The position numbers and the translations under genes are program-made. This document shows, in pieces, positions 26,993 to 35,902 of a stretch of 64,000 nt of DNA (position 1 is its first letter; each line of letters opens with the position of its first letter). Source of the stretch: Pseudomonas sp. RIT-PI-S (lineage in GTDB: Bacteria; Pseudomonadota; Gammaproteobacteria; Pseudomonadales; Pseudomonadaceae); assembly GCF_025642975.1 (NCBI RefSeq), contig NZ_JANZKJ010000002.1:310001-374000 (forward strand), read 5' to 3'. The notes beneath the pieces were generated by a model, which worked only from the letters and a program-made list of their open reading frames with translations, was not told the DNA's origin and did not search any database.

Positions 26993-28189
26993 ATGTCCCT
27001 GCCCAGCCTTCGCCTTAAAGCCAACGCCGACCGCCGGTTGCGCGCCGGTCACCTATGGGTGTTCAGTAACGAGGTGGACGTTGCCGCGACACCACTGCAT
27101 GGCTTTCAGGCAGGCGACCAGGCCATACTCGAAGCCGCTGGTGGCAAGCCGCTGGGAGTGGTCGCGGTTAGCCCGAACAACTTGATTTGCGCGCGGCTGG
27201 TGTCACGCGATCCACGCCTGGCGCTGGACAAATCCTTACTGGTGCATCGGCTTAATGTCGCGCTTTCGCTACGCGAGCGGTTGTTCGACAAGCCGTTCTA
27301 TCGTTTGGTTTATGGCGACTCTGACCTACTCCCGGGCCTGGTGGTGGATCGTTTCGGCGACGTTGTGGTGGTGCAACTGGCTTCCGCCACGATGGAAGCG
27401 CACAAGGACGACGTGCTGGCGGCACTGATCCAGGTGCTCAAGCCTAGCGGCGTGTTGTTCAAGAACGATTCCTCGGCGCGGGATGCCGAGGGCTTGCAGC
27501 GCTATGTGGAAACGCCTTTTGGCGTGGTACCGGAATGGGTGGCCTTGGAAGAAAACGGCGTGAAGTTCGAGGCCCCGGTGATGCAAGGGCAGAAAACCGG
27601 TTGGTTCTATGACCACCGCATGAACCGCGCCCGCCTGGCGCCTTATGTAAAGGGCAAGCGTGTGCTGGACCTGTTCAGCTATATCGGTGGCTGGGGGGTG
27701 CAGGCCGGGGCGTTCGGCGCCAGTGAAGTGTTCTGCGTCGACGCCTCGGCCTTTGCGCTCGATGGGGTTGAGCGTAACGCTGCCCTTAACGGCTTCGCGG
27801 AAAAAGTCACCTGCATCGAAGGCGACGTATTTGAAGCCATGAAGGAGCTCAAGGCAGCTGAAGAGCGCTTCGACGTGATCATCGCCGACCCGCCTGCCTT
27901 CATCAAACGCAAGAAAGACCTGAAGAACGGCGAAGGGGCCTACCGCCGCTTGAATGAACAAGCCATGCGCCTGCTCGGCAAGGACGGCATCCTGGTCAGC
28001 GCGTCTTGCTCGATGCACCTGCCTGAAGACGACCTGCAAAACATCCTGCTCACCAGCGCCCGCCACCTGGACCGTAACCTCCAGCTACTCGAACGCGGCG
28101 GCCAGGGCCCGGACCACCCGGTACACCCAGCCATTCCAGAAACCCGTTACATCAAGAGCATTACTTGCCGGTTGTTGCCTAATAGCTAA
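26993..28189 (+). CDS. rlmI: 23S rRNA (cytosine-1962-C5)-methyltransferase
   Basis: A 398-residue SAM enzyme with an N-terminal PUA domain (LRLKANADRRLRAGHLWVFSNEVD, in parts), a central EEHEAD-like domain, and a Rossmann domain: VLDLFSYIGGWGVQAGAFGA, then IEGDVFEAM and IIADPPAFIKRKKD. VSASCSMHL near the end carries the Cys of the C5-methyltransferase type. It is the last chromosomal-type gene before the AT-rich segment. Confidence 0.94.
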   Translation: MSLPSLRLKANADRRLRAGHLWVFSNEVDVAATPLHGFQAGDQAILEAAGGKPLGVVAVSPNNLICARLVSRDPRLALDKSLLVHRLNVALSLRERLFDKPFYRLVYGDSDLLPGLVVDRFGDVVVVQLASATMEAHKDDVLAALIQVLKPSGVLFKNDSSARDAEGLQRYVETPFGVVPEWVALEENGVKFEAPVMQGQKTGWFYDHRMNRARLAPYVKGKRVLDLFSYIGGWGVQAGAFGASEVFCVDASAFALDGVERNAALNGFAEKVTCIEGDVFEAMKELKAAEERFDVIIADPPAFIKRKKDLKNGEGAYRRLNEQAMRLLGKDGILVSASCSMHLPEDDLQNILLTSARHLDRNLQLLERGGQGPDHPVHPAIPETRYIKSITCRLLPNS

Positions 28190-28193
28190 CGAA

Positions 28194-28229
28194 GGCTCCA
28201 TATTTCTCCAAATTGAGAGAAATGAAGCC
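28194..28229 (+). terminator. Hairpin just after rlmI
   Basis: GGCT and ATTTCTC pair with GAGAAAT and AGCC as two stacked stems with a small internal loop. It starts 5 bases after the rlmI stop. No T-run follows. It may end rlmI transcription or stabilise its 3' end. Confidence 0.4.
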
Positions 28230-28892
28230 GCCCCTCGCCTGCGCGGCGCCCCTTTGTGACGTGGACGACTTGTTATCCTGAGCACGTAGTGGCGCTGGCG
28301 CGGCGCCCTCTTCTGCCAGCTTTCATTCGCGAGCAAGCTCGGCTATCTACGGCACCTGTTTGACAATAACTTTACCCATGGAATCTCCATCTCGCCTCAC
28401 AGCCCGCCCACAGCTACCCTTAACGCCAATCGACTAAACCCTGTACGAAATCGTTTGGAACGAAGGTCAGGCGAGAAGGCAGACTGGGCCTGCATTCAGG
28501 TTTACTTGGCGTAAATAAGCATTCCGAACCGATTTTCAACGCAGCATCGTCGAGTACCAAAATATTTCAGTTCTAATCCGTGTGGATGACGCTTGGTAGC
28601 GATCGCTTGGGCTCCCGAGCGGCAAGAGCTTGATGAGTTACACCCTAGCGCGTTTAAGTTCCATCCCCTAATACGTAACATTCGGAAACTTAACCAACCA
28701 GCGCTGGACTATCCTTGCCTAGAAATTGCCATGCACTAGCCTCCATGCCGGCATGTCGACCAGCTAAAAAAATTAAAACTGGCCTAAATCCGTTCTGACG
28801 CGGTTTTCAAAGCAAACAGTAAAGTTTCCTACAGTATTTTCAGCCCTTCGCGCCCTACCAGACCCTTGATTATAAAATTCCTGCCATTACTC
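28230..28892. other. Non-coding AT-shifting stretch upstream of the accessory operon
   Basis: About 660 bp without an ORF that has a ribosome site. It opens chromosome-like, with CGAGC-AA-GCTCG (28330-28341) of the kind common in Pseudomonas intergenic repeats, and becomes visibly AT-richer after about 28,380. Other marks are a TTGACA at 28360-28365 with no matching -10, a perfect palindrome CATGCCGGCATG at 28744-28755, and TATAAA at 28871-28876, a possible -10 for the accessory operon about 59 bases before its first ATG. I see no recognisable gene remnant, but decayed sequence cannot be excluded by eye. Confidence 0.5.
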
Positions 28893-28915
28893 TGTGACTG
28901 TCACATGTCGTGACT
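28893..28915 (+). promoter_or_regulatory. GTGAC/GTCAC dyad cluster before the tiny ORF
   Basis: TGTGAC-T-GTCACA (28893-28905) is a perfect 13-bp dyad, and its right arm forms a second inverted repeat with the next GTGAC: GTCAC-ATGTC-GTGAC. It lies just downstream of the TATAAA box and directly before the ribosome site AAGGAG (28918-28923). It could be a repressor operator or a 5' mRNA hairpin. No regulator gene is nearby in the accessory segment. Confidence 0.4.
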
Positions 28916-28929
28916 TCAAGGAGAAAATC

Positions 28930-28995
28930 ATGAAAAAGGTAAGTCTTGAGAATCGCAAAATGGAAAATCTGCACTGCGTAGTAATTGTTTCCTAA
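28930..28995 (+). CDS. 21-residue peptide: candidate precursor or leader peptide
   Basis: ATG 28930 is preceded by AAGGAG with six bases between, the best ribosome site in the segment. The product begins MKKVSLENRK and ends LHCVVIVS: a polar, basic N-terminal part followed by a short hydrophobic tail with a single Cys (position 16) and a C-terminal Ser. It is followed after 26 bases by a perfect stem-loop, then by genes for a SagB-type dehydrogenase, an AurF-type oxygenase and an exporter. That layout matches RiPP operons of the pqqA type, where an abundant tiny precursor is separated from its enzymes by a hairpin. The alternative is a regulatory leader peptide controlling the hairpin. Conservation could not be tested. 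Confidence 0.55.
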   Translation: MKKVSLENRKMENLHCVVIVS

Positions 28996-29021
28996 GAACA
29001 TCCAACTAGGTGCAAAGTTCA

Positions 29022-29049
29022 AGGTGGTAGCAGAATCCTGCTACCACCT
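29022..29049 (+). other. Perfect 12-bp stem-loop between the tiny ORF and the dehydrogenase gene
   Basis: AGGTGGTAGCAG (29022-29033), loop AATC, CTGCTACCACCT (29038-29049): all 12 pairs match. It ends 14 bases before ATG 29064. No T-tract follows, so it is not a standard intrinsic terminator; it is better read as a processing/stability element or an attenuator that hinders translation start of the dehydrogenase gene, whose own ribosome site (AGGG at 29051-29054) is weak. Confidence 0.85.
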
Positions 29050-29063
29050 CAGGGCCCATCCAT

Positions 29064-30131
29064 ATGAATATCAATACCGACTTTATACTGCTATCAAAAG
29101 ACAACGCCATAATTGCTTGGAACTACGTCGAACACACACAATATCAGCTTTCTACATCTTATAGCCTGCGCTATGTAGAACTGATGTGTAAACCGCAAAT
29201 GTACGACCCGCACAACCCTATAGACAAAGATCTCGCGGACTACGGCTTGGTCAAAGATTTTTCATCTTGTACCCGCGATTGGGGCTGGGACATTTTGTCT
29301 GAAATATTTCATTACGGCACCAAAGATCTTGATACATCCAACTGCCCCGCAGATGAAGAAGCCTGGGCCGAGGCCTATATTGCCCACTGCGAAGAAATAC
29401 TCGTAAAAACCAATCAAAAACCGCCCACAACATCCATTCTAGAATTAGAAAAAATTCCGCTTCCGACAAGCCCCATGCCTATAATTACACTCGAAGATGC
29501 TTTCCTATTACGAAAGACATGTCGAGACTTCCACGCGATGCCGGTAAACTTGCAGCAGCTAAGCGTAGTATTGAAGGCGACCCTTGGCTTCCGTCAGGCA
29601 GAAAACAACCAAAATATACCTTTAGAATTTTCGATCCGTCGCTATAGCCCGAGCGGCGGTGGCATGAACGCCACTAATGGGTATGTCTACATAAATTCGG
29701 TAGGTGAACTAAAGCGAGGCTTCTATAAATATGATCCAAATGACCATAGCATCATCTTAATAAAGTCTACGGGACGAGATCTGGGGAGCATAACGAATGG
29801 TCAGCATTTCTCGGATACCGCCGCTTTTGCCATATTATTGACGTCTCGCCTAAATAGGCTGTGGTGGAAATACAGCCATTCTAGAGCATACAGAATGGCG
29901 CTCATTGAGCTCGGGCATCATTCACAAACTGCGCTTTTATCAATAGCTGCGACAGGCTTAAAGAGTTGGATTACGGGGGCTCTAGAAGACACGATTATTG
30001 AAACAGAACTTGGTATAGCCGGCACTCATGAGCAAGTTTTCTTTTGTATTGCTGCTGGTCATGGCACCGATTCACCAATTTCCAAAGCGCTATTGCAAAG
30101 GTTGAATGGAAATGAAAATAATTCCGTGTAA
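29064..30131 (+). CDS. SagB/ThcOx-type FMN-dependent dehydrogenase
   Basis: A 355-residue flavoprotein predicted to oxidise (dehydrogenate) a peptide or small molecule with FMN. An N-terminal part of about 140 residues, without a recognised motif, precedes the nitroreductase fold. FMN-contact signatures are LLRKTCRDFHAMP (149-160), YSPSGGGMNATNGYVYI (194-210), and the dimer helix YRMALIELGHHSQTALLSIAATGL (in parts, 277-299); the order and spacing match SagB-like azoline oxidases. No YcaO cyclase gene, the usual partner, is in the window. The gene is AT-rich: a hand count of 60 bases at 29101-29160 gives 24 G/C against 41 at 27001-27060. Its end overlaps the next gene by 26 bp. Confidence 0.85.
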   Translation: MNINTDFILLSKDNAIIAWNYVEHTQYQLSTSYSLRYVELMCKPQMYDPHNPIDKDLADYGLVKDFSSCTRDWGWDILSEIFHYGTKDLDTSNCPADEEAWAEAYIAHCEEILVKTNQKPPTTSILELEKIPLPTSPMPIITLEDAFLLRKTCRDFHAMPVNLQQLSVVLKATLGFRQAENNQNIPLEFSIRRYSPSGGGMNATNGYVYINSVGELKRGFYKYDPNDHSIILIKSTGRDLGSITNGQHFSDTAAFAILLTSRLNRLWWKYSHSRAYRMALIELGHHSQTALLSIAATGLKSWITGALEDTIIETELGIAGTHEQVFFCIAAGHGTDSPISKALLQRLNGNENNSV

Positions 30132-31017
30132 AAAAGGGTACCAATGGGAAACCCATTCCTGCGTAAGGGCGAGAGCTTATAGATATGACTTAACCATATC
30201 GGACTTTAAAAAAGATCTATTTCCAAGGGAAATGACCGGTTATTTTGATAGCCCCGTAATATCTGCTTTACCATTGCAAAACCAAAGAAGGCTGTTAGCA
30301 TATCATCTCCAAGATTTCTTAGAATACACCGTAACTTTAGAGCACACTATCGTAAATCCTGCTCTACAGCTCGTAGTAACATCAGAGCTATTTCAAGACT
30401 TTCCATCCAAACTAAAAGATCAAGCCTATCAATTTTATACTGACGAAGGATACCATGCGTACTTTTCACACCGACTATCATCTACGGTCGGATTAAATTA
30501 TTGCTTGAAAAAGTCGTTGACCGCCTCTCGCCGAATAACGCGATTAGCAGGCCTCTCATCGTCCCAAGAAATTTTTGTTCCGAATGAAATTATTTGCTTT
30601 TTAAAGGCTTTTGCATCTGAGACGCTAATCTCCAAAGAGCTTGCAAACCTGCAACTTCCTTCAATCTCAAAGCCCGTACTTGCCATGTTTAAGGATCATA
30701 TGTATGACGAGGCGAGGCACTGTGAATTTTTTTGCGAGCTATTTGTAGAACTTCACAAGAAAATTTGCTTGACCCCTATGATCCCTGTCCTTCTCGACAT
30801 ATTAGATATTTTTTTCGAAGTCGATGAGCCAAATATGACACACCGCCTATTACTTTCGGAAGGCAACGAAGAGGATGTGAATGGACTAATAGCCTCTGCT
30901 AGAACCAACCTCATAGCGGCCAAGAAAGAACGTTGTACTACTCCGCTGCGCGTTTTGAAAAGGCTAGGTCTATTTTCTACCGCGGAGGCTGACATCATTA
31001 ACCGAGGATACGCATGA
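30106..31017 (+). CDS. AurF-like diiron oxygenase
   Basis: A 303-residue helical protein with a ferritin-like diiron site. Both copies of the AurF signature E-x(28-37)-DExxH are exact: Glu79 with DEGYH 113-117 (33 residues between), and Glu172 with DEARH 201-205 (28 between). AurF-family enzymes oxidise aryl or alkyl amines to hydroxylamines, nitroso or nitro groups; other chemistry is known for relatives, so the substrate is open. Start is ATG 30106 or, with better spacing from AAAGG, ATG 30112. It overlaps the dehydrogenase gene by 26 bp and the exporter gene by 4 bp (ATGA), so the three are translationally coupled. Confidence 0.82.
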   Translation: MEMKIIPCKKGYQWETHSCVRARAYRYDLTISDFKKDLFPREMTGYFDSPVISALPLQNQRRLLAYHLQDFLEYTVTLEHTIVNPALQLVVTSELFQDFPSKLKDQAYQFYTDEGYHAYFSHRLSSTVGLNYCLKKSLTASRRITRLAGLSSSQEIFVPNEIICFLKAFASETLISKELANLQLPSISKPVLAMFKDHMYDEARHCEFFCELFVELHKKICLTPMIPVLLDILDIFFEVDEPNMTHRLLLSEGNEEDVNGLIASARTNLIAAKKERCTTPLRVLKRLGLFSTAEADIINRGYA

Positions 31018-32207
31018 AGACTAATTTTTTTGATAGTCTTAAGTCGAAACCATCTCTTGCATTCCTACTAATTTTGATGAGTGCTTTAGGAGTTATCCCA
31101 CTAGACGTGATACTTCCATCCATTTCTTCTATCTCAGATGAGTTCCGAATCACAACATCTGAAGCATCCGCTGGAATCGCACTCTTCACAGTAGGCGTGG
31201 CGATAGCCCAAAGTATTATTGGGCCAATATCTGATCAAATCGGAAGGAAGCGAACTTTTCTATTCTGCCTAACAATGGCCATATGTGGCTCTTGGGGATG
31301 TGCACTGGCAGACAGTACGGAAAAATTTTATGCCTTCCGGGCAATGCAGGCTATTGGATGCGGCGGATTCGTATTATCTCAGGCATTTATTCAAGATATT
31401 TTTTCACCTTACGAGAGAATGAGACAGCGTATTCTACTCACATCAGCAAGCGGAGTCTTCATTTCTATCTCGCCTGCTTTTGGAGTTCTTCTCCAAAATT
31501 ATTATGGCTGGAAAGGCAGTTTCTATGCCTTCGCCGCGCTGGGTTTAGTAGTCGCCATGATTGCTGCAATGGCACTCCCAGGAAAAACTACTAAACCCCC
31601 TATTTTAGCCGGCAGCGCAGCTCTTTTCACAGTTGATACTATCCGCTTCATACACGGCGGCCTTATAGCGACGATCACATTTGCAAGTCATTTTTCCTTC
31701 ATCATTCTGTCGCCCGTGATTTTCATTGAAATGCTTCAACTCAGCTTGGAACAATATGGTGCAATTATGCTGCTATATGGAACTTCCTACGTCGCAGGTG
31801 GTTTTGCTGCCAACTTTTTAAGCAGAAGAATAAGTAACCGCACCCAAATTTTTATCGGCCTCTGGCTCATAGTCGCAGGCAGTCTCAGCATGGCCATCTT
31901 GCACACGCTCTTAGGCATGACGAGCCTCACGGTCATAAGCTCCATAATCATTTCTAGTTGCGGCGTGACCCTGGCCAGGCCGGCCGCAACAACTATCGCT
32001 ATGGAAGCCATGCCTCAACGAGCTGGCACGGCGGCATCTGGACTGAATACGTTGATGTTCGTCGGTGGGGGTGCGATCAGCTTTGGCCTTGGGCTGTTCG
32101 CACCGTTCGCACAATGGCTGTTGCCCACTGCCCTATTCTTAATGGCAGTGACCGGCCTTTTACTTTGCACATTCCGCCCATTGTGCGTTCACCTAAGCCC
32201 TCATTAG
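31014..32207 (+). CDS. MFS exporter, Bcr/CflA type
   Basis: A 397-residue, 12-helix major facilitator transporter. Motif A is GPISDQIGRKRTF between helices 2 and 3, and the Bcr/CflA-type opening MSALGVIPLDVILPSI follows a short polar N-terminus. AMQAIGCGGFVLSQAFIQDIF is helix-4 wording of drug/H+ antiporters. As the last gene of the operon it probably exports the product and gives self-protection. Composition changes inside the gene: hand counts of 60 bases give 24 G/C at 31801-31860 but 37 at 31981-32040 and 34 at 32041-32100. The last 80 or so codons therefore look chromosomal, suggesting a hybrid gene. Confidence 0.88.
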   Translation: MKTNFFDSLKSKPSLAFLLILMSALGVIPLDVILPSISSISDEFRITTSEASAGIALFTVGVAIAQSIIGPISDQIGRKRTFLFCLTMAICGSWGCALADSTEKFYAFRAMQAIGCGGFVLSQAFIQDIFSPYERMRQRILLTSASGVFISISPAFGVLLQNYYGWKGSFYAFAALGLVVAMIAAMALPGKTTKPPILAGSAALFTVDTIRFIHGGLIATITFASHFSFIILSPVIFIEMLQLSLEQYGAIMLLYGTSYVAGGFAANFLSRRISNRTQIFIGLWLIVAGSLSMAILHTLLGMTSLTVISSIIISSCGVTLARPAATTIAMEAMPQRAGTAASGLNTLMFVGGGAISFGLGLFAPFAQWLLPTALFLMAVTGLLLCTFRPLCVHLSPH

Positions 32208-32254: not shown

Positions 32255-33583
32255 CTAAAGCTCCAACACCTGGCTGGCGATGGCGAAGTACACCAGCACC
32301 CCGGCCGCGTCGGCAATGGACGTGATCAAGGGCCCGCTGGCGGTAGCGGGGTCCATCCGCAGGCGGCTCAGCAGGAACGGCAGGCTCATGCCGATCACGC
32401 TGCCTACCATCACGATAATGACCATGCTGCTGGCCACAATCACGGCAATGTCTGGGCCGCCTCGCATTACCCCAAGCAGCGCCACCGCGGCAGCCATGGT
32501 AATGCCCAGGGCCAGGGCGACGAGGCATTCGCGCCCAAGCAGCTTGACCCAATCGCGCAGCACCACTTCCCCCGTCGCCAACGCGCGCACCATCAGGGTC
32601 GCAGACTGGGCACCGGCATTGCCACCGCTGTCCACCAGCAGTGGCAGGAAGAATACCAAGGCGATATTGGCAGCGATCACATCCTCGAACGCGGCGATCC
32701 CGGCTCCAGAGAACAGGTTGCCGAACACCAGCAGCACCAGCCACAGCACCCGCTTGCGGTACAGCAAGCCCACGGTGGCGTCGCGCAAATTGCCAATGTG
32801 CGTGGCGATGGAGGCACCTTTGTGGAAGTCTTCGGTCGCCTCGTCGACCACCACGTCCATCGCGTCGTCGCACGTGACAATCCCCACCAGTTGCTGGTCG
32901 TCATTGACGATGGGCAATGCCAACAGGTCATAGTCGCTGATAAGCCGTGCGACTCGCTCCTGCGGGCAGCCTACTGGCGCGCTCACTACCTGGTCGCTAG
33001 CGAGGCTGGCAACGCTGGCGCCTGGTTCGGCCAGCACCAGATCACGCAGGGATAGCACCCCGGCCAACCGCCGTTGCGCGTCCAGCACATAGGCCTGGTA
33101 AATGGTCTCGGCCTCTGGCGCGCTACGGCGCAAGGAAGCAATGGCGTCGGCCACGCTCATGGCAGCGTCGACCGTGCAGTATTCGCTGGTCATGATCGCG
33201 CCGGCAGTTCCTTCGCGGTGCGCGCTGAGCTTGAGCAGATCATCCCGCTCCGCCTGGGCGAGCGCGGTGAGCAACGTGCCGCGCACGCTCTCCCCCAAGC
33301 GCTGGAAGAGGTCGGCGCGCTCGTCGGCGGACATCGCGCTGACCAGCCGCGCCAATTGTACCCGAGGCATCTGCGCGGTCAGTTCGACCTGGCGCGCCAG
33401 CGGAAGGTAGCCGAACACCTCGGCGCGCTTGGCAAGGTCTACCCTGCCGAGGGTTTCGAGGGCCGCCTCGCAGTTCATGAGGGCAAGGTAGCGGGCGATG
33501 TCCGCGGCCAATTGAGCCTTGGCGGCGGTCGCCACGTTTGGCTGGTCCAGCGGTGCGGTGGAAGGGAAAAGGGTATGGGTCAT
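32255..33583 (-). CDS. mgtE: Magnesium transporter MgtE
   Basis: A 442-residue Mg2+ channel. ATG 33583 (GGAG upstream; MTHTLFPST) is chosen over the open frame 36 bp earlier. Order: N-terminal superhelical domain (about 40-140, SADERADLFQRLGESVRG), a CBS pair (about 145-265, AIMTSEYCTVDA and VVSAPVGCPQERVARLI), the plug-linker LRDATVGLLYRKRVLWL, and five membrane helices with the pore GNAGAQSATLMVRALATGEV. The gene is chromosomal in composition and converges on the exporter gene. Confidence 0.93.
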   Translation of the reverse strand: MTHTLFPSTAPLDQPNVATAAKAQLAADIARYLALMNCEAALETLGRVDLAKRAEVFGYLPLARQVELTAQMPRVQLARLVSAMSADERADLFQRLGESVRGTLLTALAQAERDDLLKLSAHREGTAGAIMTSEYCTVDAAMSVADAIASLRRSAPEAETIYQAYVLDAQRRLAGVLSLRDLVLAEPGASVASLASDQVVSAPVGCPQERVARLISDYDLLALPIVNDDQQLVGIVTCDDAMDVVVDEATEDFHKGASIATHIGNLRDATVGLLYRKRVLWLVLLVFGNLFSGAGIAAFEDVIAANIALVFFLPLLVDSGGNAGAQSATLMVRALATGEVVLRDWVKLLGRECLVALALGITMAAAVALLGVMRGGPDIAVIVASSMVIIVMVGSVIGMSLPFLLSRLRMDPATASGPLITSIADAAGVLVYFAIASQVLEL

Positions 33584-33634
33584 AAGGTTCTCCGGGCGCA
33601 TTGGCGCGGCCGGGAACATGCGACGCTTAGCCGC

Positions 33635-34063: not shown

Positions 34064-35902
34064 ATGCCTGATTACCGCTCGAAAACGTCCACCCATGGCC
34101 GCAACATGGCCGGCGCCCGCGCCCTGTGGCGTGCTACGGGGATGAAAGACGACGACTTCAAAAAGCCGATCATCGCCATCGCCAACTCCTTTACGCAGTT
34201 CGTGCCTGGCCACGTACACCTCAAGGACCTGGGCCAACTGGTCGCCCGGGAGGTAGAGCGCGCAGGTGGCGTGGCGAAGGAGTTCAACACCATCGCGGTG
34301 GACGACGGCATCGCCATGGGCCATGACGGCATGCTCTATTCCCTGCCCAGCCGCGAGATCATCGCCGACTCGGTGGAGTACATGGTCAACGCCCACTGCG
34401 CGGACGCCATCGTTTGTATCTCCAACTGCGACAAAATCACGCCCGGGATGCTCATGGCGGCCCTGCGCCTGAACATCCCGGTGATCTTCGTCTCTGGCGG
34501 CCCGATGGAAGCCGGCAAGACCAAGCTGGCCAGCCACGGACTGGATCTGGTCGACGCCATGGTCATCGCTGCTGACAGCACCGCTTCGGACGAAAAAGTC
34601 GCCGAGTACGAACGCAGCGCCTGCCCCACGTGCGGCTCATGCTCAGGAATGTTCACCGCCAACTCGATGAACTGCCTGACCGAAGCCCTGGGCCTGGCCC
34701 TGCCAGGCAATGGCTCGATCGTTGCAACCCACTCCGACCGTGAACAATTGTTCCTACGCGCTGGCCGTACCATCGTGGAGATCGCCAAACGCTATTACCA
34801 CGACAACGACGAATCGGTGCTGCCACGCTCCATCGCATCGTTCAAGGCCTTCGAGAACGCGATGACCCTGGACATCGCCATGGGCGGTTCCACCAACACC
34901 ATTCTCCACCTGCTGGCGGCGGCCCAAGAGGCCGAGCTGCACTTCGACCTGCGTGACATCGACCGCCTTTCCCGCCTGGTGCCGCAGCTGTGCAAGGTGG
35001 CGCCCAACACACCCAAGTACCACATGGAGGACGTGCACCGCGCAGGCGGCATCTTCGGCATCCTGGGGGAGCTGGCGCGTGCGGGCCTGCTGCATACCGA
35101 CGTGCCCACGGTGCATAGCCCGAGCATGGCCGCGGCCATTGCCCAATGGGACATCACCCAGACCTCCGACGAAGCCGTGCGTGAGTTCTATCGCGCGGGC
35201 CCGGCGGGCATCCCCACGCAGGTAGCGTTCAGCCAGAGCACCCGCTGGGAAAGCCTGGACGATGACCGTGCCGAGGGCTGTATCCGCAACCTGGAACACG
35301 CCTACTCGCTCGAAGGCGGCCTGGCGGTACTCTACGGCAACCTGGCGGTGGATGGCTGCGTGGTCAAGACAGCGGGCGTGGACGAGTCCATCCACCGCTT
35401 CGAGGGCAACGCTAAGATTTTCGAAAGCCAGGACAGCGCCGTGCGGGGCATCCTCAACGATGAGGTGAAAGCCGGCGACGTGGTGATCATCCGCTACGAA
35501 GGGCCGAAAGGCGGCCCGGGCATGCAGGAAATGCTCTACCCCACCTCGTATTTGAAGTCCAAGGGGCTGGGCAAGGACTGCGCGCTGCTCACCGATGGCC
35601 GTTTCTCTGGTGGCACCTCGGGATTATCCATCGGCCACGCTTCGCCAGAAGCTGCTGCCGGCGGGACCATCGCGCTGGCGCGCAACGGCGACAAAGTGCT
35701 GATCGACATTCCCAACCGCTCGATCAACCTGCTGGTGGATGACGGCGAACTGGCCGCGCGGCGCACCGACCAGGATGAAAAAGGCTGGAAGCCCGCCGAG
35801 GCCCGCCCGCGCAAGGTGACCACCGCGCTCAAGGCCTATGCCCTGCTGGCCACCAGCGCCGACAAGGGCGCTGTGCGCAACAAGGCCATGCTCGACGGCT
35901 AA
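34064..35902 (+). CDS. ilvD: Dihydroxy-acid dehydratase
   Basis: Dehydrates dihydroxy-acids in isoleucine and valine synthesis with an Fe-S cluster. ATG 34064 gives 612 residues starting [26 protein letters not shown] (in parts), the family start; the 45 upstream codons are not conserved in type. Cluster and active-site blocks are [20 protein letters not shown] (in parts) and [19 protein letters not shown], and [20 protein letters not shown] marks the C-terminal domain. A hairpin follows the stop. Confidence 0.96.

Follow-up and report, generated by a model that had tools for sequence, protein, structure and literature searches.

A candidate mini-RiPP operon of Pseudomonas with a 21-codon precursor gene, a SagB-type dehydrogenase, an AurF-type oxygenase and a predicted exporter

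The window analysed here is a stretch of 64,000 nt from Pseudomonas sp. RIT-PI-S, whose genome (G000) has a size of 4.9 Mb. At positions 28930-32207 of the window, four open reading frames (ORFs) follow each other on the plus strand: a 21-codon ORF with a 12-bp hairpin behind it, and genes for a SagB-like, an AurF-like and a major facilitator superfamily (MFS) protein. We propose, with a probability of roughly two in three, that this operon encodes a minimal pathway for a ribosomally synthesized and post-translationally modified peptide (RiPP), in which the precursor would be held on SagB, oxidised, oxygenated at Asn13 by the AurF-type enzyme and, as predicted, exported by the MFS protein. At the level of sequence, the conserved peptide, the two oxidative enzymes and the exporter form one inherited unit. 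The positions of the ORFs and the overlaps of 26 bp (sagB/aurF) and 4 bp (aurF/MFS gene) had been given correctly in a sequence-only reading that preceded this analysis. The operon is composed of the following elements.

28930..28995 including the stop codon, plus strand: precursor peptide gene, 21 amino acids (aa), MKKVSLENRKMENLHCVVIVS; based on the ORF in 80/80 GTDB loci, a held-out hidden Markov model (HMM) and pN/pS (ratio of nonsynonymous to synonymous polymorphism) in related ORFs
29022..29049, plus strand: 12-bp stem-loop with a 4-nt loop between the peptide gene and sagB; based on minimum free energy (MFE) compared to shuffles
29064..30131, plus strand: SagB-type flavin mononucleotide (FMN) dehydrogenase, 355 aa; based on PF00881, TIGR03605, a structure model, fold comparison and alignment to ThcOx and McbC
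30106..31017, plus strand: AurF-type diiron oxygenase, 303 aa; based on PF11583, alignments and comparison of a model to CmlI and AurF
31014..32207, plus strand: Bcr/CflA-like MFS protein, 397 aa, predicted to serve in export and self-protection; based on PF07690, TIGR00710 below its cut-off, and lone copies

A scan of GTDB contigs with a profile of the SagB alignment yielded 142 relatives, and all counts of GTDB loci refer to the best 80 of these 142, every one of which is named Pseudomonas. The order SagB-AurF-MFS was found in 79 of the 80 loci, while the 80th (L061) stops at a contig edge; a tblastn search recovered the trio, arranged identically, at all of 30 loci. Among 293 relatives, 179 of them members of the genus, strong AurF matches (E < 1e-20) were detected at 53 places in 52 genomes of a single genus. 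At these places the MFS gene is adjacent in 53/53 cases and some SagB sequence in 52/53, the exception being a decayed locus in G031 (L053). Two further places, L054 (in G247, AurF without SagB or MFS) and L055 (a 50-base piece), were excluded from the counts. This bears out the earlier claim that the genes act together. It had also been stated that unlinked genes, or a match to a known named cluster, would speak against a self-contained pathway; our neighbourhood search revealed linked genes and no such match.

A short ORF of 21-23 codons, preceded by a Shine-Dalgarno sequence, lies 123-161 nt upstream of sagB in all 80 GTDB loci, and the peptide gene comes first in every intact locus examined. 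Since many GTDB loci come from the same strains as genomes designated G, counts refer to non-redundant sequences: the 128 loci combined contain 106 distinct regions, with 81 different peptides. The latter comprise 21-25 residues (26 in the AurF-type loci L298 and L299, which were added later) with the consensus MKxIxLExxKIANLAxLVxxKxR. All 81 share the pattern M-x-x-[IV]-x-[LM]-E. The residues M1, E7 and N13 are invariant, K2 and A12 are found in 80 of the 81 and L14 in 79, and 8 to 12 residues follow Asn13. The window peptide, which features V4-x-L6-E7 (the predicted leader motif) and Asn13 (the predicted AurF site), is the exception at position 12, with E12 for A12. Alignment A5 contains 27 chosen peptides, and the peptide of L300 was read directly, its ORF being outside the Shine-Dalgarno filter.

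Across 85 distinct ORFs of 23 codons from relatives, pN/pS amounts to 0.41 in the reading frame, compared to 1.04 and 2.49 in the other frames; the peptide gene is under purifying selection as a protein. When a peptide HMM was built without the window row, the window ORF ranked first among 2,064 stretches (E 0.0063). A search of 174 genomes with the peptide profile only gave matches in 32, in 31 of them at the operon (twice in G053). The 32nd, in G232, is weak (E 0.0038, residues 8-21 only), belongs to another family and looks like chance. Compared by eye, the 31 genomes are the strong-AurF genomes among G000-G106 except for the decayed G031. Scripted detection found the peptide at 48 of the 53 AurF places; in L031, L033, L038 and L048 the SagB ORF as called is short, and L053 has no SagB. 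The profile search recovered the peptide of G006 (L048) despite its short SagB ORF. Thus the tiny ORF qualifies as an encoded precursor of the RiPP type within the operon, its translation being predicted, and the earlier suggestion that it supplies a ribosomal scaffold gains support, since the tiny ORF and the stem-loop recur in relatives. The conservation of tail residues that had been envisaged together with this recurrence was not found: none of the invariant residues (IxLE, Asn13) lies in the last third of the peptide.

The SagB-type protein matches PF00881 above the cut-off and TIGR03605 with 103.8 bits (cut-off 78.4). By E-value (1.7e-35) the best NCBIfam model is TIGR04511, a putative peptide maturation dehydrogenase, yet its score of 122.8 is below the cut-off of 240. 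SagB alignments were made with 17 (A1) and 33 (A3) chosen rows from loci or the window, to which 6 database proteins were added, rows shorter than 345 aa being ineligible. SagB and McbC, known from the thiazole/oxazole-modified microcins (TOMMs) streptolysin S and microcin B17, and ThcOx and PatG of the cyanobactins share with the window protein an FMN oxidase of nitroreductase fold with a Lys-Tyr pair. In azoline oxidases these two residues are catalytic, and K269-Y270 of the window SagB is aligned with WKY of ThcOx and FKY of McbC. The structure model (39 rows) has a mean predicted local distance difference test (pLDDT) score of 80, with 80-94 in the block of residues 1-60. Its N-terminus shows the order beta-beta-beta-alpha-alpha (strands 7-12, 15-20 and 25-29, helices 31-42 and 52-59), which is followed by the nitroreductase domain. 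The solved structures of ThcOx and BmdC were aligned over the whole SagB length with a large root-mean-square deviation (rmsd), probably due to differing domain placement, and residue 1 of SagB aligns with residue 117 of ThcOx. According to the accessible part of PMC5108345, residues 7-86 of ThcOx have the leader-binding fold of TruD, a peptide clamp, and residues 87-194 form a second one. From the model we infer that the N-terminal domain of the window SagB resembles the ThcOx clamp and may bind a leader.

The family of SagB includes the TOMM oxidases, and one YcaO match exists on another contig of G000. Could the operon thus belong to a TOMM pathway whose YcaO cyclodehydratase is supplied by a gene outside the operon? 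We regard this as highly improbable. Pfam and NCBIfam scans revealed no YcaO cyclodehydratase among the operon genes, and the peptide has no conserved Cys, Ser or Thr: 40 of the 81 distinct peptides contain none of them after residue 10, and 8 none after residue 7. Moreover, the YcaO family also matches E. coli and 4 archaea among 14 controls, and the gene in G000 is likely a housekeeping one. In further difference to the TOMM and cyanobactin systems, the operon contains no E1-like partner and its peptide is only 21-26 aa long.

The AurF-like protein matches PF11583 with 45.3 bits (cut-off 29.6), while the score of 21.7 bits for the NCBIfam model of AurF itself (NF045603, 4-aminobenzoate N-oxygenase) stays far below the cut-off of 620. 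Alignments A2 and A4 were composed of chosen rows as for SagB, with rows shorter than 300 aa ineligible. The residues E79, E114, H117, E172, H198, E202 and H205 are invariant in 36 rows, and by the ligand set of AurF we take these seven positions to be the diiron ligands. The structure model (pLDDT 92) matches CmlI and AurF at 16-18% identity. Thus the window protein presumably shares fold and iron ligands with these arylamine N-oxygenases, but differs from them in its low identity and in lying beside a short peptide gene. It is 23% identical to the second AurF of the same genome. The proteins closest to the window SagB and AurF are P0242, P0002 and P0003, with 50-55% identity.

Variants of the operon are informative about the roles of the peptide parts. 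Seven loci (in G017, G818, G713, G021, G786, G873 and G141) contain SagB and MFS but not AurF, and in all of them a short ORF with the start M-x-x-[IV]-x-L-E is located at -123 to -140, with a hairpin behind it. None of the seven has Asn at position 13, which is Ala in three, His in one and Gly in three; Asn13 is present in all AurF-type peptides including the most divergent ones of L298 and L299. In a third type (L293, L294), SagB is accompanied by an ORF of 56-58 codons, MKRVTIEPTLNNQSNDAYQTPHFSIKTVTVP..., with the start MKRVTIE. At L293:1770-5657 a carbamoyltransferase and an MFS protein follow, as scanned, the latter not being of the operon kind by profile; L294 has the same layout, from which its carbamoyltransferase and MFS genes are surmised. 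Thus the segment [IV]x[LM]E is common to all AurF-type and AurF-less peptides and has the form VTIE in both carbamoyltransferase loci, while the cores differ by type. Because of the AurF-less and carbamoyltransferase variants, the sequences suggest that the N-terminal motif travels with SagB and Asn13 with AurF. The linkage of the three genes proposed in the sequence-only reading stands, but AurF is an add-on to a core of peptide, SagB and MFS, as AurF-less loci exist. SagB relatives of the carbamoyltransferase type were also seen in G004 (a partial match) and G040 (several stops).

The variants also bear on the possibility that the operon serves tailoring or detoxification of a small molecule and that the peptide is a micro-subunit or chaperone of SagB instead of a substrate. 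Such a role would fit the presence of the peptide only at SagB loci in the 174 genomes (including G006 with its short SagB ORF) and of an IxLE start in every type. However, past residue 7 the peptide differs according to the tailoring enzymes, which is the behaviour expected of a substrate core, and the substrates of the solved SagB-type relatives are presumably ribosomal peptides or chains bound to a carrier. We therefore judge a micro-subunit to be rather improbable.

The second feature kept throughout the operons is the hairpin. The 78-nt stretch 28993-29070 has an MFE of -26.3 kcal/mol (z -4.0), and none of 200 shuffles was as stable. Hairpins of at least 8 pairs are located between the peptide gene and sagB in 105 of the 106 distinct regions, the exception being L083, and 60 of the 106 intergenic stretches have z < -2 in mononucleotide shuffles. 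Since the inner 6-mers of the 5' arm exist in 32 different versions, the structure is kept while the sequence changes. The hairpin could be a partial terminator or an mRNA processing element. In the same intergenic stretch, GTGCCGGC was found in 82 of the 106 regions (L002, L008 and others), at the apex in the folds seen; it is absent from the window.

This arrangement raises the question of whether the tiny ORF has a regulatory role as a leader, which would open the hairpin by arrest or attenuation and switch on an enzyme and exporter operon for an unrelated small molecule. It is short, has a strong Shine-Dalgarno sequence, ends a median of 7 nt before the 5' arm of the hairpin and precedes an exporter operon, and by eye some of the hairpins in relatives end in a short T-run. 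On the other hand, the invariant residues are N-terminal or in the middle and not near the stop codon, from which Asn13 is separated by a varying number of residues. The stems vary, and inspection of the tiny ORF by eye, as opposed to computation, gave no alternative partner with which the hairpin could pair. Neither the tracking of AurF by Asn13 and of SagB by IxLE nor the ORF length in the carbamoyltransferase type is in line with such a leader, which we thus consider unlikely, albeit the strongest of the alternatives to a precursor.

Upstream of the tiny ORF two further elements were recognised.

28918..28923, plus strand: Shine-Dalgarno sequence AAGGAG of the tiny ORF, six bases 5' of the ATG; based on sequence
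28900..28914, no strand assigned: dyad GTCAC-ATGTC-GTGAC, putative operator or 5'-UTR hairpin; based on sequence and shuffles

GTCAC and GTGAC, in either order and at most 14 nt apart, are present within the 90 nt 5' of the ORF in 60 of the 106 regions, compared to a shuffle mean of 0.05, and it is possible that this dyad acts as an operator or as a hairpin in the 5'-UTR. CAAGGAG is found in 69 of the 106 upstream regions. The context of the Shine-Dalgarno sequence (window 28916-28924; ACAAGGAGT in many relatives) resembles what we take to be a binding site of the Gac/Rsm system (RsmA). If it is an RsmA site, the peptide would be under the usual control of secondary metabolism in Pseudomonas. 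A promoter and terminator scan of 28200-29100 gave nothing above chance.

The MFS protein matches PF07690 above the cut-off. Its best model is TIGR00710 (Bcr/CflA), but since the score of 149.9 is below the cut-off of 200.9, we name it Bcr/CflA-like only. To its function, genomes without the full operon provide a clue. We surveyed 80 chromosomal slots. One is that of G031, and the others come from 79 of the 127 members of the genus in which AurF gave no strong match, ranked by rlmI similarity (G076 and G170 were passed over, and L221 with only 242 bases is unjudgeable). An MFS gene matching the operon profile was present in 37 of these 80 slots, in 5 of them accompanied by a complete or partial SagB, and 29 of the 34 full-length slot MFS proteins are alone. 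In a tree that combines the slot proteins with 51 MFS proteins from operons, at least 11 changes are required for the label 'lone'; our interpretation is that the enzymes were lost several times independently and the exporter was retained. The ratio of nonsynonymous to synonymous substitution rates (dN/dS) is 0.08-0.22 in six pairs of lone exporters and 0.07-0.16 in three operon pairs. Retention and selection together suggest that the exporter has the predicted function in immunity or self-protection. In 689 kb of slot strand, four ORFs with a leader-like start and a Shine-Dalgarno sequence were found, three of them true members. In L203, a slot without SagB, the ORF MKVVNLEGPCRLGSLKPHMRRAE near base 1084 starts like a precursor and is either chance or a relic.

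Based on these results, the proposed RiPP pathway could work as follows. Owing to the hairpin behind the peptide gene, mRNA for the peptide would be far more abundant than that for the enzymes. M-x-x-[IV]-x-[LM]-E would serve as a leader, whose alternating hydrophobic residues may add a strand to the clamp-like N-terminal domain of SagB. SagB, with the Lys-Tyr pair of azoline oxidases and without a YcaO protein in the operon, would dehydrogenate the core directly, and the AurF-type enzyme would act at Asn13, as the covariation suggests, perhaps by N-hydroxylation of the amide. Housekeeping proteases such as TldD/PmbA, a role guessed from microcin B17, may trim the product; two genes of the PmbA/TldD family are present in the window's genome. 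Finally, the MFS protein would export the product as a small compound and also protect the cell, the latter because genomes without the enzymes retain the exporter and purifying selection acts on it there.

Several observations weigh against parts of this pathway. None of the 39 SagB rows has a Pfam match to PqqD or the RiPP recognition element (RRE), the likeness to the clamp comes from the full-length ThcOx alignment with an rmsd of 17 A, and in the tree a long branch (2.46) leads to the window SagB. Among the 31 matches at operons, that of the window peptide is the weakest, and the tail CVVIVS of this peptide lacks the usual KxR. The AurF-less SagBs form one clade (100/99); because of this, the covariation of Asn13 and AurF amounts to one event, and the uncorrected Fisher value of 1.6e-10 is unfair as a probability. 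One AurF-less peptide has an out-of-register Asn9-Leu10, the IxLE start of L269 assumes the second of two possible starts, and common to all variants are only M1, aliphatic residues at positions 4 and 6, and E7. As to the exporter, 43 of the 80 slots show no MFS, and SagB was also not found there (one was too short). The changes to 'lone' could be gains as well as losses, some branches are long, and another efflux role may fit the lone MFS proteins equally well. Last, there is no protease gene in the operon.

A further-reaching proposal, to which we would give somewhat less than even odds, is that these loci represent a new RiPP class. Its sole common maturase would be the clamp-bearing SagB, which works without YcaO and reads M-x-x-[IV]-x-[LIM]-E, while the second enzymes (AurF, carbamoyltransferase or none) are swapped together with the cores. 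N-oxygenation of Asn13 by AurF would result in a toxin or metallophore resembling an Asn-hydroxamate, and the exporter would be an immunity protein kept by former producers. If the pathway is real, more than one quarter of the sampled Pseudomonas genomes hold a route to a ribosomal natural product, the precursor gene of which, with approximately 21 codons, is easily overlooked by annotation. Its AurF-type oxygenase would, to our knowledge, be the first such enzyme to act on a ribosomal peptide. Further, the same SagB with three tailoring states would provide a natural series separating leader code, core and enzyme.

Among known systems, pyrroloquinoline quinone (PQQ) and mycofactocin are small cofactors cut from short precursors. 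A short conserved precursor, oxidative enzymes and a small end product, the latter probable for our operon, are common to all three, but the operon genes include no radical SAM enzyme, the residues are other ones, and SagB and AurF take the place of the known enzymes. AurF-type proteins of small-molecule pathways in Pseudomonas, MgoC and PvfC, are encoded in the mgo and pvf clusters, which we assume to be based on non-ribosomal peptide synthetases. As described in the accessible part of PMC7726476, the OS3 cluster of Pseudomonas sp. Os17 also encodes a small precursor together with a dehydrogenase of the SagB type and has been connected with antibiotic activity. It differs by an 85-aa helical precursor, a GNAT acetyltransferase, a HEXXH-type protein and a SagB protein of 650 aa, and AurF or a diiron protein is unmentioned in that part of the text (PMC7726476); thus it is distinct from the window operon. 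In the accessible part of PMC5594592, an aurF gene is merely listed within a deleted region. The system had been called uncharacterised, and this holds: no curated model names it, and no description was found in the open full-text literature of PubMed Central, a search that did not cover preprints and most subscription papers. The operon probably yields a ribosomal natural product, of a type that we did not find described. The PADLOC search gave no match for the three window proteins, and a defence system was rejected for this reason.

SagB is present in 108 of 398 sampled Pseudomonas genomes, and the AurF type in 52 of 179, one of them decayed. A class-wide search of 369 genomes revealed SagB matches in 41 genomes besides G000. 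A search of the genome contigs with the single AurF sequence found no relative. In ten SagB regions from outside Pseudomonas, some of them cut by contig ends, AurF and an MFS of the operon type were not found, and no operon members were detected outside Pseudomonas in the genome samples searched, the scan not extending to metagenomes. The sole ORF with a leader-like pattern in these ten regions, MWMLYIE..., lies approximately 1 kb 5' of SagB in L154.

The chromosomal surroundings of the operon in the window contain the following genes.

26993..28189, plus strand: left landmark of the slot, RlmI-like 23S rRNA methyltransferase; based on best matches, with no model above cut-off
32255-33619, minus strand: mgtE, between the operon and ilvD in the window
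34064..35902, plus strand: right landmark of the slot, ilvD; based on synteny

The gene recognised 5' of the operon is rlmI in 72 of the 80 GTDB loci, being out of reach in the other 8, and ilvD is within reach at the 3' side in 71 of the 80. The window differs by mgtE, a gene not detected in any of the 80 loci. The operon stretch 28190-32207 is A+T-rich: its G+C content is 44.7%, and the two 2-kb steps covering the operon have 48.1 and 43.5%, compared to 56.6-65.9% in the remaining steps of the window. A horizontal island was dropped as the main explanation for this, because the operon adjoins rlmI as in relatives with a G+C content of the operon from 44 to 66%; a replacement of the operon within the slot is conceivable. 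Two operon copies exist in G053 (L027 and L034, one beside rlmI and the other on a different contig) and likewise in P. farsensis SWRI107 (L059, L061). Two loci are in decay: L194 in G159 has retained the peptide gene, the MFS gene and a SagB fragment but not AurF, and in G031 an AurF remnant and the MFS gene (L053) are located on a contig other than that of rlmI.

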